Below are positions 50,983 through 56,074 of a stretch of 57,326 bases of DNA, one piece after another. Position 1 is the first letter of the stretch. The number at the start of each line of letters is the position of its first letter. Location of the stretch: NCBI GenBank assembly GCA_030533385.1, contig JAUNJG010000008.1, forward strand, positions 1-57,326, read 5' to 3'. Source of the stretch: Eubacteriales bacterium. GTDB taxonomy: Bacteria; Bacillota; Clostridia; Lachnospirales; Lachnospiraceae. The notes under the pieces are model-generated. The model saw nothing but the letters and a program-made list of their open reading frames with translations, searched no databases and had not been told where the DNA came from. The position numbers were made by a program, and so were the translations under genes.

Positions 50983-53028
50983 TTAATGAATAGCTGTCCC
51001 TTCCGGTACGCTGTCGTCCACAAAGATAACCTTGCAGCCGCAATCGTCATGAGTCGCTGCCAAAAGCATACCGTTGCTCTTGATACCGGCAAATTTTGCC
51101 GGTTTTAAGTTCGCCATAACAATAATTTTCTTTCCGATAAGCTCTTCCGGCGTATACTCATCACGGATGGAAGATACGATCACTCTGTCCCCCAGACCGT
51201 CAAACAACGTCAACTTCAGAAGTTTTTCTGCGTTTTTCACAACCTCACAGGCAGTAATTTTGCAGACGCGCATATCCATCTTGTCAAACTCGTCAATGGT
51301 AATCTGAGATTTCACCGGCTCGATGGCACTCCGTCTGGCTTCTTCTTCCGCCGCCGCTTTGGCTGCCGCCGCTTCCTCTGCAGCGATTCTCTCCGCCTCT
51401 GCCTTTGCCGCCTCTGCCAGCTTCTTCTCCTCCTCGGTCTGCGGCGTGGAAAAGTCCAGCAGCCCCAGATATCTTTGTGGCTCCACAGCGTACAAGAACA
51501 GATACAGTCTCGGTCCCGCCGCCTTTCCAATCATGAGATTGTAGGCATTTTTAAAGAAGTTGGCCTGCACTGCCTTTTTATTTTCCTCATTAAAGTTCGG
51601 ATCCGCTTCTCTCGGAATCGTATAGATAAATGTGTTAAGTTCATCTAAGTTATACTCGCCTTTTTCGATATAATCATGAAGAAGCTGAATCTCTTTTTTC
51701 TCTACCTCGGATAAGGTATTGTAATAATCCCAGTTTCTGTAACCCAACAGGGTATTCATATTCTGCGGCGCACATTTTTCCAACCAGTACTTTGCCAGAT
51801 CCAGCCTCTCGGCAAACTCTTCCTTTGAATATGGATTGCCGATTTTTTCAAAAACGGTCTCCAGCATGTCCGGGTTAAAATCTACCACAGAACCGAAGTT
51901 CACAATCTGCTGCATCGGCACCGGATAGAGAGTTCTTCCCTCAATCATGCAGTTGTGCATGATGCCTTCGATGTAATCAAAATTTTTTCCTTTGCCCGCC
52001 TGATAAACTTTGAGCATTTTATCGAACTCAAAATACTGGCGAAGAATCTCATCATCGAAACAGAAATCAAATGCCTTGTTCGGCTCTGATTTAGAATAAA
52101 GCCACAAAATTACTTCCGGCTGATAAATCTCCAATAATGTTTCCGGCGTCAGATTCAGACCGGTGGAACCGGACATTTTGCCCGTAGTTCCCTTGATGCC
52201 GATGAACTCATACCCCTTAAACATCGGCGCATTGATGCCGAAAATCTTTTTAGCAATGATTTTGCTGGTGTCATAACTTCCACCCGGACTTGCGTGGTCC
52301 TTGCCGCCCGGCTCAAAATCGACGCCCTCCACCATCCAGCGCATCGGCCAGTCAATCTTCCATGCCAGCTTACAGTTGAAATCCTTGCGGAAATCCCAGG
52401 TGCCGCTGTGGCCGCATTTACAGGTGTACTCGCAGGTCGTTCCGTCCTCGGAGGAGGATAAGATGGTCGTCTCGTCCTTTCCACAAACCGGACAGTAGAT
52501 ACTCACCGGATAGTAAGCTTCCCTCTCCTCCGGTGTTGCTTCCTGCTGGCGGAACTTATCTAAAATATCAAAAATTTCTTTTCTCTTCTGAATCGCCTGA
52601 ATCACATATTCTGCGTACTTACCACTCCGGTAATTCTCGCTCTGTCTTCTGGCATCCACCTTAATGCCAAAGCGGGACAGAGAAGCTTCAAACTCTTTTT
52701 CAAAATGCTCGGCATAAGAACCACAACATCCATAAGGGTCTTTCACATCCACATAAGGCTTTCCGATGTCCTCCTCCAGCTCCGGCGCAATTTCCTTTAC
52801 GTTTACCGGAACTTTGCGAAAACGGTCAAACTCATCCCAGGAAAATAACAGACGGGCTTTTTTTCCCTGTTTTAACAATGCTTTATATACAAAATAGCTG
52901 GTAGCAATGTCTCTGAAATTACCAATGTGAATGGAACCGGACGGGCTGATTCCCGCTGCACAAACGTACTCCTCCTTATCCGGGGACCTCTTAATAATAT
53001 CTTTTGCAATCTTCTCAGACCAATGCAT
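50983..53028 (-). CDS. lysS: Class I lysyl-tRNA synthetase with C-terminal OB-fold tRNA-binding domain
   Basis: The 681-residue enzyme charges tRNA-Lys. It is the class I type: the HIGH-like motif is GSIHIGN (residues 31-37) and the KMSKS-like motif is KMSGSTG (about 284-290). A zinc-type CPVCG...CKCG segment and WPMRWMVEGVDFEPGGKDH are also typical. The core ends near residue 525. An Ala/Glu-rich helical linker (about 526-570) joins it to a MetRS/Trbp111-like OB-fold (about 575-681; FDKMDMRVCKI, IVMANLKPAKFAG, GMLLAATHD). Class I LysRS is usually about 520 residues. ATG 53028 has AGGAGG seven bases upstream. Confidence 0.93.
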   Translation of the reverse strand: MHWSEKIAKDIIKRSPDKEEYVCAAGISPSGSIHIGNFRDIATSYFVYKALLKQGKKARLLFSWDEFDRFRKVPVNVKEIAPELEEDIGKPYVDVKDPYGCCGSYAEHFEKEFEASLSRFGIKVDARRQSENYRSGKYAEYVIQAIQKRKEIFDILDKFRQQEATPEEREAYYPVSIYCPVCGKDETTILSSSEDGTTCEYTCKCGHSGTWDFRKDFNCKLAWKIDWPMRWMVEGVDFEPGGKDHASPGGSYDTSKIIAKKIFGINAPMFKGYEFIGIKGTTGKMSGSTGLNLTPETLLEIYQPEVILWLYSKSEPNKAFDFCFDDEILRQYFEFDKMLKVYQAGKGKNFDYIEGIMHNCMIEGRTLYPVPMQQIVNFGSVVDFNPDMLETVFEKIGNPYSKEEFAERLDLAKYWLEKCAPQNMNTLLGYRNWDYYNTLSEVEKKEIQLLHDYIEKGEYNLDELNTFIYTIPREADPNFNEENKKAVQANFFKNAYNLMIGKAAGPRLYLFLYAVEPQRYLGLLDFSTPQTEEEKKLAEAAKAEAERIAAEEAAAAKAAAEEEARRSAIEPVKSQITIDEFDKMDMRVCKITACEVVKNAEKLLKLTLFDGLGDRVIVSSIRDEYTPEELIGKKIIVMANLKPAKFAGIKSNGMLLAATHDDCGCKVIFVDDSVPEGTAIH

Positions 53029-53200
53029 TCCTTTTCCTCCTAAACTAACCCTATGGTTTTTATCTCGATTCACCACCTGCGCTCTGATTCCAGGCGGGAA
53101 CTTACTCACATCTAACGCAAATACCCCATCGGCATTTGCCATAGAGAGCCATTTTCCTCATCTTTTCTCATCATAGAAAAAAGCTCATAGTCAATTAGAA

Positions 53201-53279: not shown

Positions 53280-54610
53280 CATATATCTGCGGCAGTATTT
53301 TTTTCCAAACCTTGATATGCCGCTAAATCAAGCTGGTTTTCTTCCGTCGCAGCAACCAGAACCGCCGCCGTCGCAGCTCCCACCACGTTCGTGGCCGTGC
53401 GTGCCATGTCTATGATGCTGGAAACCGGTGAAAGCAGCACAATGACCTCAACCGGAAGCCCCGCCGCGACAAAAAGCGCCGTGGCCGTGATGGTCGCCGT
53501 CCCCGGAACTCCAACGCTCCCCACAGCTACAATGAGTGCCAGGACAATCAGAAAGCCATATTGCATCGGCGTGTAAGTAATTCCCAGAATCTGCACGGCA
53601 AACACCGCCAGCAAGACCGGCCACATTCCGGCGCATCCCGGCATTCCAAGGTTTGCGCCCAGACTGGCGACAAAAGAGGCAATATCCTCGTTGACCCCCA
53701 TCTTTTTCAACTGTGTGACTGTAACCGGAATGGTCCCAACACTACTTTGAGAAGTAAAGGCAACTACCCCGGCCGGCCAGATTTTTTTGAAAAATGGAAT
53801 CGGATTCAATTTGCCAATCACCCACAAAAGGACACCTTCCACCAGGAAAGTCTGGATGGCGCACACTACATAAGCAAGAACCAGCACGCTCAGGAGCGGC
53901 AGCAGATCCCCCAGAGAACTCCGGCTTACTGCCCTGGCAATCAGAGATAGAACTGCGTAAGGAGTAAAAGAAATCACAATACTGACCACTTTTCCCATCA
54001 CCTTGTCCCCGGCATCAATGAAGGCCTTGAACGGCGCCGCTTTTTCAGGCTCTTCTTCCGAAAATTTATTAAATGCGATGCTCACCAGAATCAGAAAAAT
54101 CACAATGGGAACTACCTCTCCACCAACCCAATGGGCTGCCAGATTTTGAGGAAATAAGGAGACCAGCGTATCAACGATTGTCGGCACTTCGGCAGCCTCG
54201 TAATCCGTCGCCAGTTCATAAGTAAACCCTGCTCCAACATTTGTGACAATTGCGGCAACCAGCGTGATCACACTGGCTGTCAGCGTATTTAGCAACAAAA
54301 ATACAACCGTTTTCCAGCCGATGTTTTTCAGCCGGATGGACAATCCAAGGTTGGTGATGCTGGAAATGATGCTGAATGCCAGCAGAGGAATCACCAAAGC
54401 GGAAATCACACGAGAATACACGGCGCCAAAGGCGGCAACATATGTGTAATGTCCCTTAAAAACCAAACCAACCACGATTCCAAACGCCGTTGCCAAAATG
54501 GTGCAGACACCAAAATCCCATTGTTTTTTCTTATCCAAATAATACAACACTGCGAAAAAAGCCAGCGTCAACAGCAAAGCTCCCCATTCTAAAGGTTCAA
54601 AACTCATCAT
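53276..54610 (-). CDS. Dicarboxylate/amino acid:cation symporter, probably L-cystine uptake (TcyP-like)
   Basis: The 444-residue DAACS-family membrane protein has about eight helices and two re-entrant loops. The substrate and ion motifs are SQSSVGTIPVTVTQL, SLGANLGMPGCAG, VPGTATITATAL and the C-terminal DMARTATNVVGAA. The SSVGTIPVT and GMPGCAG pattern is closer to cystine transporters (TcyP/YdjN) than to glutamate carriers (SSSGTLP, NMDG), so cystine is the likely substrate. AGGAGG lies six bases before ATG 54610. The gene is preceded by a terminator and a Cys-containing leader peptide, which fits control by cysteine supply. Confidence 0.82.
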   Translation of the reverse strand: MMSFEPLEWGALLLTLAFFAVLYYLDKKKQWDFGVCTILATAFGIVVGLVFKGHYTYVAAFGAVYSRVISALVIPLLAFSIISSITNLGLSIRLKNIGWKTVVFLLLNTLTASVITLVAAIVTNVGAGFTYELATDYEAAEVPTIVDTLVSLFPQNLAAHWVGGEVVPIVIFLILVSIAFNKFSEEEPEKAAPFKAFIDAGDKVMGKVVSIVISFTPYAVLSLIARAVSRSSLGDLLPLLSVLVLAYVVCAIQTFLVEGVLLWVIGKLNPIPFFKKIWPAGVVAFTSQSSVGTIPVTVTQLKKMGVNEDIASFVASLGANLGMPGCAGMWPVLLAVFAVQILGITYTPMQYGFLIVLALIVAVGSVGVPGTATITATALFVAAGLPVEVIVLLSPVSSIIDMARTATNVVGAATAAVLVAATEENQLDLAAYQGLEKNTAADIC

Positions 54611-54723
54611 TATTTTCCTCCTAAATCAATAAATAAACTGAAATCATCGTTCTCATCTTTCATCATGAAGCAATCTCTCTCGTATTCAAGATGCTTCTGT
54701 TCCGGTTCCAATCAATAAAAAAA

Positions 54724-54748
54724 CCGGAAGCTTTTGACAAGCTCCCGG
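54724..54748 (-). terminator. Leader terminator (attenuator) upstream of the symporter
   Basis: On the minus strand CCGGGAGCTT and AAGCTTCCGG pair over ten bases (one G-U-type mismatch at the CCGG ends at most) around GTCAA, followed by seven T residues. It lies between the leader peptide stop (54777) and the symporter start (54610). Its 5' arm can pair instead with 54837-54846 inside the leader ORF. Confidence 0.9.
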
Positions 54749-54776
54749 ACAAATGGCAAATAAGATAACAGGCAGG

Positions 54777-54902
54777 TTACAACTGTGTATCACGTCGAGG
54801 TGCAAACAAGCATAACTGCACCCCAGCCATATTATATGCCCGGGAGTTTAACATTCGACAACACATGCTGCTATTAAATTTATAAGTTGCGAATCCAGTC
54901 AT
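54777..54902 (-). CDS. 41-residue leader peptide upstream of the symporter
   Basis: ATG 54902 has GGAG nine bases upstream and runs to TAA at 54777. The peptide begins MTGFATYKFNSSMCCRMLNS and continues through NMAGVQLCLFAP to RRDTQL. Codons 14 and 15 are TGT TGT and codon 31 is TGC. It lies between a consensus promoter and an intrinsic terminator, so it looks like a regulatory leader rather than a functional protein. The stop is 28 bases before the terminator hairpin. A ribosome that reached it would leave the terminator free to form. Stalling at Cys14-Cys15 would expose the antiterminator segment at codons 19-22. Confidence 0.75.
   Translation of the reverse strand: MTGFATYKFNSSMCCRMLNSRAYNMAGVQLCLFAPRRDTQL
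54800..54826 (-). other. Internal hairpin of the leader RNA
   Basis: GGTGCA pairs with TGCACC around about 12 bases within leader codons 27-36 on the minus strand, with G-C flanks extending it. It could act as the pause or alternative hairpin of the attenuator. Confidence 0.55.
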
Positions 54903-54946
54903 TGTTTCCGTCTCCTTTCCAGCAATCTGCTTCAACTAATGAGACC

Positions 54947-54980
54947 ATTATATTACTATTTACCTACTATGTCAATAGGT
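54947..54980 (-). promoter_or_regulatory. Consensus promoter with overlapping palindrome (candidate Rrf2/CymR-type operator)
   Basis: On the minus strand TTGACA (54970-54975) is exactly 17 bases from TATAAT (54947-54952), a perfect sigma-A consensus. ACCTATTGACATAGTAGGT (54962-54980) surrounds the -35, with perfect 5-bp arms ACCTA and TAGGT. Such a strong promoter needs repression, and the arms look like those I recall for Rrf2-family (IscR/CymR) sites. The regulator assignment is inference. Confidence 0.7.
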
Positions 54981-55087
54981 TTTAAAGATATTTTTTTTGT
55001 AAACGTTGTCTGAATCTTAGCTGTTTAATCCTTCATTTTGATTTTCCCACTCTCTGCCACTGATGGCATCCGAATCACGAAGAACAT

Positions 55088-55805: not shown

Positions 55806-56074
55806 TTACCGTGCGGTTGGCTTTGTACGACTGTCAACAGACGTTACCTCTACAGTTAGCTCGAACCAGGCACCCTTGCGGCACACAGAAAAACACTTCT
55901 TAGTGCTGCTTCGTTCCCGACCTGACACGGTTCAAAGGTCTCTGTTGCGCAAGACCCAATTGTCAACACCACTTATAAAGGGCAGCTCCATCCACAGAAC
56001 ATCCGGGGCCAACCATCACTCCTGCTATAGCGGATTGCAGGTACAGGACGCCGCTAACTCCCCAGCTGCACGGT
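55806..56074 (-). ncRNA. ffs: Signal recognition particle RNA, large bacterial type
   Basis: The minus strand begins ACCGTGCAGCTGGGGAGTTA and ends near CAACCGCACGGT, so the 5' and 3' ends pair. The domain IV core GTGTCAGGTC...GAAGCAGCACTAAG near 55905-55935 is the Ffh-binding loop; it reads GGGAACGAAGCAGC, a small variation on the usual GGAAGGAAGCAGC. The length of about 269 bases fits the Gram-positive 6S-like SRP RNA with an Alu domain. A consensus promoter is just upstream, and tadA next door is a frequent neighbour in Firmicutes. Confidence 0.92.

Follow-up and report, generated by a model that had tools for sequence, protein, structure and literature searches.

T-boxes are taken as the standard sensor of amino-acid supply in Bacillota. 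Known attenuators mostly occur one per operon and are not known to form a shared sequence family. In Rhodobacterales, cysS is preceded by uORFC-8-2, a leader ORF with an intrinsic terminator whose tandem cysteine codons are usually codons 14 and 15, and for which sensing of Cys-tRNA is proposed in the relevant passages of PMC8632094. The original prediction noted that Cys-rich leader ORFs have been reported in actinobacteria: leader ORFs with runs of cysteine codons precede the mycobacterial cys operons and the cbs genes of P. acnes and B. longum, with no obvious or conserved terminator hairpin according to the passages of PMC1262725 that describe them. The control in M. smegmatis is termed translation attenuation in the part of PMC13236596 that deals with it; that paper cites Canestrari 2020, whose title speaks of leaderless ORFs. 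Cys-specific T-boxes control cysP1, cysP2 and cysKE of C. perfringens, as stated in the corresponding passages of PMC2940859.

The leader described here lies in a stretch of 57,326 nucleotides of Lachnospiraceae DNA, the whole of which we refer to as the window. It is very probably a trp-type leader-peptide transcription attenuator, which would read charged tRNA-Cys and open the gene of a probable cystine importer when cysteine is scarce. The original prediction had proposed a promoter, a leader ORF with TGT TGT, a terminator and a ten-pair alternative pairing, and all of these details were recovered on the sequence (Table 1), with ten continuous pairs, one of them G-U, between CUCCCGGGCA (54846-54837) and UGUCCGGGAG (54751-54742). 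Absent from it were a second helix, AUGGC/GCCAU, and the intervening hairpin at 54824-54797. Met codons 13 and 17 flank Cys codons 14 and 15 of the leader ORF, the distance from the first base of Cys codon 15 to the 5' arm of the antiterminator is 14 nt (in the window as well as in alignment A4), and the terminator hairpin begins 28 nt past the stop codon of the ORF. The features of a trp-type attenuator are thus present, i.e., a leader ORF with tandem Cys codons that is predicted to be translated, an intrinsic terminator between this ORF and the gene, and an alternative antiterminator that overlaps the 5' arm of the terminator and would be free under a stalled ribosome.

Table 1. Positions, strand and basis of assignment for the leader features and the controlled gene in the window
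Feature	Position	Strand	Basis
Promoter TTGACA-17-TATAAT, sigma-70-like	54947..54975	-	12/12 consensus positions
Imperfect dyad CCTATTGACATAGTAGG over the -35 box, candidate operator	54963..54979	-	Copies upstream of sister attenuators
Ribosome-binding site of leader ORF, AAGGAGA	54911..54917	-	Read from sequence
Leader ORF, 41 codons + stop, MTGFATYKFNSSMCCRMLNSRAYNMAGVQLCLFAPRRDTQL	54777..54902	-	Start ATG, from sequence
Tandem Cys codons 14-15 (TGT TGT), predicted stall site	54858..54863	-	Sequence; block conserved in alignment A4
Antiterminator 5' arm CUCCCGGGCA, within leader ORF	54837..54846	-	Sequence, folds, duplex energy, covariation
Second antiterminator helix, 5' side AUGGC	54826..54830	-	Fold; 5/5 pairs changed on both sides in A5
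Hairpin GGGGUGCA...UGCACCUC within antiterminator	54797..54824	-	Folds
Second antiterminator helix, 3' side GCCAU	54753..54757	-	Fold; covariation in A5
Antiterminator 3' arm UGUCCGGGAG, overlaps terminator 5' arm	54742..54751	-	Folds, duplex energy, covariation
Intrinsic terminator hairpin	54724..54748	-	10 pairs, 6 G-C
Terminator U tract, seven T (TTTTTTT)	54717..54723	-	From sequence
Controlled gene, SDF-family (PF00375) amino acid:cation symporter, 444 aa	53276..54610	-	Pfam, 310.8 bits

Two other features of the window lie near this locus on the same (minus) strand. Downstream of the symporter gene, at 50983-53142, is a class I lysyl-tRNA synthetase (TIGR00467, 386 bits), which has at its C terminus a tRNA-binding domain resembling that of MetG and is preceded by its own promoter-like site at 53229-53201. 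At 55809-56073 there is a large bacterial SRP RNA (178.8 bits).

With enough Cys-tRNA, the ribosome would run on to the stop codon, which lies 28 nt short of the terminator, and hold the leader arm off its partner, and transcription would end. With little Cys-tRNA, it would stall when Cys codon 14 or 15 occupies the A site, which would bring its front edge to about the start of the arm, at 54846. The arm at 54846-54837 (with 54830-54826) could then capture 54751-54742 (with 54757-54753) while the 3' half of the terminator has yet to be transcribed and, once this antiterminator had formed, RNA polymerase would run on into the symporter gene. The alternative helix and its covariation are read directly from the sequence and its comparison with relatives; the response of the leader to cysteine is what we infer. 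The mechanism originally predicted, a stalled ribosome that lets an antiterminator form, holds in silico, both in the folds and in the covariation of the arms across relatives.

When the whole leader was folded, the terminator formed, with a total energy that was not unusual (z = -1.5) and a terminator probability in the window of 0.99, or 1.00 with a ribosome at the stop codon. By contrast, RNA starting at 54847, as with Cys codon 15 in the A site, had the antiterminator as its minimum-energy fold (-43.0 kcal/mol, z = -3.1), and the antiterminator was also the minimum-energy fold before the 3' arm of the terminator was made (-40.9 kcal/mol, z = -3.2). The duplex between the leader segment and the 5' arm of the terminator had an energy of -20.2 kcal/mol in the window, equalled in none of 300 shuffles. 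The arms differ greatly in sequence among the terminator-bearing symporter loci, yet match each other within a locus. Thus, the number of shuffles (of 300) that reached the energy of the natural duplex was 0 in L022, L043 and L048, 1 in L017 and L042, 3 in L040, 10 in L091, 16 in L013, 22 in L026 and L041, and 38 in L038. There was no enrichment in L083, L084 and L027, where 73, 63 and 171 of 300 shuffles, respectively, were as low, and L085 could not be scored. Combining one locus for each of nine lineages of our own choosing (the window, L013, L017, L022, L027, L042, L043, L083 and L091) by Fisher's method gave p = 3.6e-8.

In equilibrium folding with a complete terminator, the stalled RNA still favoured the terminator in 14 of 15 loci; with four U of the tail, the terminator probability of the stalled RNA was 0.72 in the window and 0.95-1.00 in the loci of the Butyrivibrio group. 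The exception was L017, whose whole leader also failed to form the terminator when unstalled (0.03). A switch must therefore depend on the order of folding during transcription and, because equilibrium folding with the full terminator fails to switch most loci, RNA truncated before the 3' arm was used. Under these conditions, i.e., before the 3' arm of the terminator exists, the probability of arm pairing was modestly above that of shuffles (Fisher p = 0.009). The shuffle control of the equilibrium fold was void for L083 and L084 (200/200), because the part shuffled there comprises just a few bases.

A close symporter (E 1e-90 or better) occurs in nine of 397 genomes of the family, including the window's own. 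Scanning genome contigs with the window symporter sequence alone yielded no relatives, and alignment A1 was needed; a scan with it gave 397 symporter relatives, of which the best 80 were kept. These, less the truncated locus L039 but with the window, L007 and L009 added, provided 82 upstream regions. A short ORF with a ribosome site and Cys-Cys was present within 400 nt upstream at 29 of the 82 loci, a count that includes related loci unthinned; 100 shuffles gave 1.16 such loci on average and never more than 4. Among the other residue doublets none reached this enrichment, the next being Asn (12 versus 2.0). Within the Lachnospiraceae, the 29 loci belong to Butyrivibrio, Lachnoclostridium, Anaerocolumna and Herbinix MAGs, and elsewhere to Ruminococcaceae MAGs, Thomasclavelia, Absicoccus, Erysipelotrichaceae MAGs, Intestinibacillus, Sedimentibacter, an Olsenella MAG and unplaced clostridial MAGs. 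In three further cases, L013 (Pseudoflavonifractor), L048 and L090, leaders are present that fail the ribosome-site rule only. The idea that leaders of related symporters would keep the Cys codons and the alternative pairing, on which the original prediction had staked itself, therefore stands for the Butyrivibrio group, Pseudoflavonifractor, Ruminococcaceae MAGs and some others, but not for the 53 of 82 symporter loci without a ribosome-site ORF containing Cys-Cys. Even within the Butyrivibrio genus group, the symporter is found in 8 of 79 genomes, and of the seven with a readable start three have the leader and four do not. In B. hungatei, the start of the leader is seemingly fused to the ribosome site of the symporter.

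At 20 loci, mostly without a clear Cys leader, Rfam gave nothing above the gathering score around the start of the symporter. An Aerococcus MAG has a T-box-like leader before the symporter (L092:2405-2663), scoring 83.5 bits against a gathering score of 93 bits. By our reading its probable specifier segment has UGC followed by a purine, and a second antiterminator-like module lies at L092:2744-2806. A relative of the symporter behind a T-box-like leader makes a swap between two tRNA sensors testable.

Cys-run leaders without a visible terminator were observed at eight related loci (L062, L065, L068, L069, L074, L078, L081 and L086). The Ser codon right after the first Cys cluster is TCC in all eight, whereas the other 14 Ser codons in the same leaders are not TCC, excepting a repeat of the motif in L086. 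A TCC at this position would place an anti-Shine-Dalgarno sequence, CUCCU or UUCCU, within the stall site, and it is possible that such leaders represent a translational version of the system. Sequestration of the Shine-Dalgarno sequence was modelled for terminator-less leaders at 18 loci, 16 of which could be computed. In L024, L062, L074 and L078, one or more stalled states made the sequence clearly more accessible, but there was hardly any gain in L065, L069, L081 and L088, and a ribosome at the stop codon also freed the sequence in L024, L062 and L074. As a general mechanism for leaders without a terminator, sequestration is thus only partly supported by these predictions.

Other variants were seen at symporter loci. 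In L024 and L029, a hairpin starting from the leader stop codon would cover the symporter start region, and its arms differ between the two by a compensating pair (TTAACTGTC/GACAGTTAA versus TAAACTGTC/GACAGTTTA). The leader in L025 reads RCYYYF, without a Cys run, and is a relative of the RCCCCF leader in L030; it may have decayed or have exchanged its Cys codons for Tyr codons. In Bifidobacterium and relatives (L045, L050, L056, L058, L059, L060 and L064), there are short ORFs with a Cys run at or close to the end, which lies about 250-350 nt ahead of the symporter. Most of them have no clear ribosome site, and they resemble the poly-Cys ORFs reported in actinobacteria.

The attenuator also occurs away from symporter genes. 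A search of 24 genomes of the genus with the leader peptide revealed a second copy in the window's own genome (G000:C138:76165-76248, E 1.5e-5) and further copies in two other genomes; one match, L121, was rejected because it appears within an unrelated coding region. A covariance model, R1, was built from 11 leaders with the antiterminator included. Among the 397 genomes of the family, R1 matched 58 places, spread over 44 genomes (counting that of the window) and 41 of 334 genera; a single genome had as many as four. Across the class, 291 sampled genomes yielded 15 places in ten genomes, the window's own two aside, and a leader with Cys codons at the block could be read in 12 of the 15; a match in G922 (E 0.006) was judged to be probably false. 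Applied to 304,557 bases of retrieved loci, chosen in most cases because of an R1 match, the model gave 71 matches, one in each of 71 sources and none elsewhere. When run on 14 sources, it recovered L013, L017, L022, L026 and L042, none of which had been used in training, but missed L027 and L091.

Because A4 is nearly invariant in the arms, the larger set of leaders was used to look for covariation. In A5, which contains 71 leaders fitted to R1, 93.2% of cells were paired and changes on both sides occurred in 12 of 15 pairs (53 cells), compared with a mean of 8.7 such cells in shuffles, none of 500 of which reached the observed value, and with at most nine pairs and 21 cells in slid controls, although these counts lean towards pairing since R1 was built with the antiterminator. 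As R1 knows the pairing, a second model, R2, was built from the leader half alone, using sequence only, 14 sequences and leaving out the second arm. Searching the same 397 genomes with R2 gave 56 places, of which 49 coincided with R1 places; the seven found by R2 only all had E values above 0.001. Forty-four of the 49 shared places had not been used to train R2. Taking the second arm from the R1 match allowed 41 of the 44 to be scored: own arms had a duplex energy of -22.95 kcal/mol versus -20.15 kcal/mol for swapped arms, a difference attained in 0 of 10,000 permutations. When the second arm was located from the leader stop codon alone, i.e., blind to both R1 and the first arm (42 of 44 scored), the values were -23.22 and -20.52 kcal/mol, again with 0 of 10,000 permutations, and the own duplex was better than the row mean in 35 of 42. 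In these 42 relatives the terminator started at a median of 29 nt past the leader stop, compared with 28 nt in the window. In a wider set, 64 of 67 leaders could be scored and 48 of the 64 were better than the row mean (0 of 5,000 permutations); all of these permutation tests treat the leaders without regard to relatedness. Typical exchanges between the arms are CCCGGGCA/TGCCCGGG, CCCAGGCA/TGCCTGGG and CCCGGACA/TGTCCGGG.

The attenuator reading is supported above all by this covariation, which is the strongest evidence short of experiment. Short ORFs are common, and one with two Cys codons might stand before an ordinary terminator by chance; this is hardly credible, however, given leaders at 29 of 82 loci against 1.16 expected, 58 R1 places in 44 genomes, and arms that covary.

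The genes behind the 57 R1 places other than that in the window were assigned partly by HMM and partly by shared sequence, and 47 of the 57 serve cysteine or methionine synthesis or uptake. Genes resembling O-acetylhomoserine sulfhydrylase account for 25, i.e., 24 recognized by a shared N-terminal sequence, plus L144 (409 bits, under the cut-off). The HMM-scanned member of the 24 follows the second leader copy of the window's genome (L122) and is an O-acetylhomoserine aminocarboxypropyltransferase/cysteine synthase (TIGR01326, 585 bits, cut-off 495.1). That leader copy shares the promoter dyad, leader motif, arms and terminator with the window's, and as judged from sequence it would control an O-acetylhomoserine/O-acetylserine sulfhydrylase gene. 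Six genes belong to the cystathionine-lyase/synthase family (the one scanned, L153, was under the equivalog cut-offs), one is cysteine synthase A (L132, 461 bits, cut-off 350.95), 11 encode family-3 solute-binding proteins (L140, L156 and L158 by Pfam, the others by a shared motif), and two each are MetQ-like and MetN-like, with scores under the cut-offs. None of the 57 was read as cysS. By our assignment, ten lie outside cysteine or methionine synthesis or uptake. Among these, four encode proteins alike at the N terminus, the one scanned having a GST_C_2 domain (L160), and single cases are Prok-JAB (L177), a cyclase (L154), an SDR (L164) and a PepT-like protein (L170); the gene in L166 had no NCBIfam match at 1e-40. 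The tenth, behind the R1 leader in L142 (L142:1743-3152), is a fragment of a gene for a glycyl radical enzyme like (2S)-3-sulfopropanediol dehydratase (780 bits, cut-off 1000), a pairing that would tie sulfonate use to cysteine need.

A lipoprotein of about 560 aa under R1 control (L156:603-2285) has both family-3 solute-binding and NlpA/MetQ domains, as found by Pfam in L156 only; L161, L165, L167 and L171 have proteins judged similar by length and motif. Such a fusion is possibly one protein for both cystine and methionine.

With copies before sulfhydrylase, cysteine synthase, cystathionine-lyase-family, MetN/MetQ-like and family-3 binding-protein genes, the family looks like a sulfur-amino-acid regulon. 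Of the other 70 leaders in A5, the one closest to the window's stands before a sulfhydrylase gene from a different genus (L124; 65% nucleotide identity across the alignment), which suggests movement of the cassette between genes. The original prediction of a single attenuator before one symporter is thus supported as to the attenuator, but the element is one of a family spread over several operons. We tentatively propose, as a possibility that falls short of even odds, that a homologous attenuator cassette with riboswitch-like mobility runs a sulfur-amino-acid regulon in many Lachnospiraceae and related clostridia, reading both tRNA-Cys and tRNA-Met and serving in place of the Cys T-boxes of other clostridia.

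The control block itself was examined in 67 leaders, i.e., the 57 places, the window and nine others. At least two Cys residues were present in the block in 63 of the 67 and Cys-Cys in 56, counts that are partly built in because R1 favours the letters of Cys codons. Within the nine-residue block, Cys made up 27.4% of residues versus 6.8% elsewhere, and Met 26.0% (157/603) versus 5.3% (99/1868). Since Met is as enriched as Cys around the block, both may be read, and the leader could be a combined sulfur-amino-acid sensor, responding to methionine as well as cysteine; MetN- and MetQ-like genes among those regulated fit this idea. We nevertheless regard it as rather unlikely. Cys runs without such Met codons precede the symporter in Herbinix, Anaerocolumna and relatives, which suggests that Cys suffices; the ATG triplets may be retained for reasons of RNA structure or decoding; and the block was defined by its Cys residues in leaders that are related to one another.

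The peptide motif MCCRMxxSRAxxMAG is conserved in relatives, with variation, and Cys pairs are able to bind metals or form disulfides. The nascent MCC peptide might therefore be an arrest peptide or a sensor of metal or redox state, with tRNA charging not being the signal. This seems improbable, because the residues on either side of the block vary freely, the block itself takes forms from Cys runs to MCMC and MCW, and the regulated genes fit cysteine supply. Moreover, SRA and MAG are encoded by the codons that form the two antiterminator helices, so that the RNA explains much of the conservation of the peptide.

If tRNA-Cys is the signal at the attenuator, initiation may still be controlled as well. 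The dyad CCTATTGACATAGTAGG covers part of the -35 box in the window, and it recurs exactly, again over the -35 box, at L122 (the second attenuator of the window's genome) and at L119. Near copies are present in L116, L117 and L013, and within the window it has no other match at up to three mismatches. Lying over the -35 box it is a candidate repressor site, and control may thus be twofold. That a regulator bound at this dyad, or a ligand riboswitch, is the real control and the ORF incidental is highly improbable. No Rfam family, T-box included, matches the window's copy of the leader (54600-55020) at E 1 or below; the conserved letters are those of the Cys codons and the two arms, with no separate aptamer; and ORFs with Cys codons are kept in other lineages in which the RNA is quite different. 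Dyads resembling CATACTAnnnTAGTAGG were also noticed upstream of the gene in some relatives, such as L024, L029, L051 and L078, including some without a Cys-Cys leader.

The symporter is a probable cyst(e)ine importer, its substrate being judged from sequence. It belongs to PF00375 (SDF) and shares 33% identity with E. coli TcyP, the only named cystine symporter used for comparison; relatives of the window's symporter are named dicarboxylate/amino acid:cation symporters in their source records. Cystine as substrate would be favoured by the Cys leaders, by the identity with TcyP and by the Cys T-boxes of C. perfringens symporters; counting against it are the best NCBIfam model, GltP (132 bits, far under the cut-off of 638), and the best relative of solved structure, an aspartate transporter (E 4e-62).

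How does this leader compare with the systems described previously? A T-box and the window leader would share uncharged tRNA-Cys as the signal, and the targets are alike, since symporters and CysK are under Cys T-boxes in the passages of PMC2940859. However, a T-box binds the tRNA directly, whereas the window leader gives no match at E 1 or below to the T-box model, whose hallmarks are a Stem I with a specifier loop and the T-box bulge. Six T-box matches were found in the genome of the window, two of them over the cut-off; by our reading the genes behind them are leuA-, tyrS-, ileS-, aspS-, pheS- and trpD-like, and none is a cysteine gene. In a search that covered mainly freely accessible papers we found no published Cys-leader attenuator in Bacillota or as a multi-operon family, though one may be in print elsewhere, and the relevant passages of PMC11109978 and PMC6429828 do not describe the family.

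If the proposal is correct, common gut commensals have a second route to the tRNA-Cys signal, via a leader peptide, with one family placed over several operons. The R1 family would predict genes that serve cysteine, including uncharacterised symporters, family-3 binding proteins (at least one of them a MetQ-like fusion) and the sulfopropanediol-dehydratase-like enzyme, and as a covarying RNA model it allows the regulon to be sought elsewhere.

Like uORFC-8-2 as described in passages of PMC8632094, the window leader has tandem Cys codons (14-15) and an intrinsic terminator, but uORFC-8-2 is found exclusively before cysS in Alphaproteobacteria, whereas here the host is one of the Bacillota and the genes are those of uptake and synthesis, the one downstream in the window encoding an SDF symporter. 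With the mycobacterial poly-Cys ORFs, as far as the passages of PMC1262725 describe them, it has in common runs of Cys codons in short ORFs upstream of cysteine genes, and differs in that an intrinsic terminator and a ribosome-binding site belong to it. With trp- and his-type attenuation it shares a leader peptide with tandem codons for the regulated amino acid and mutually exclusive antiterminator and terminator, but here one homologous cassette stands before several different operons, at up to four places per genome. The mechanism is therefore a known one, and what is new is a homologous family of Cys-leader attenuators, with Met-rich control blocks, across operons in Bacillota.
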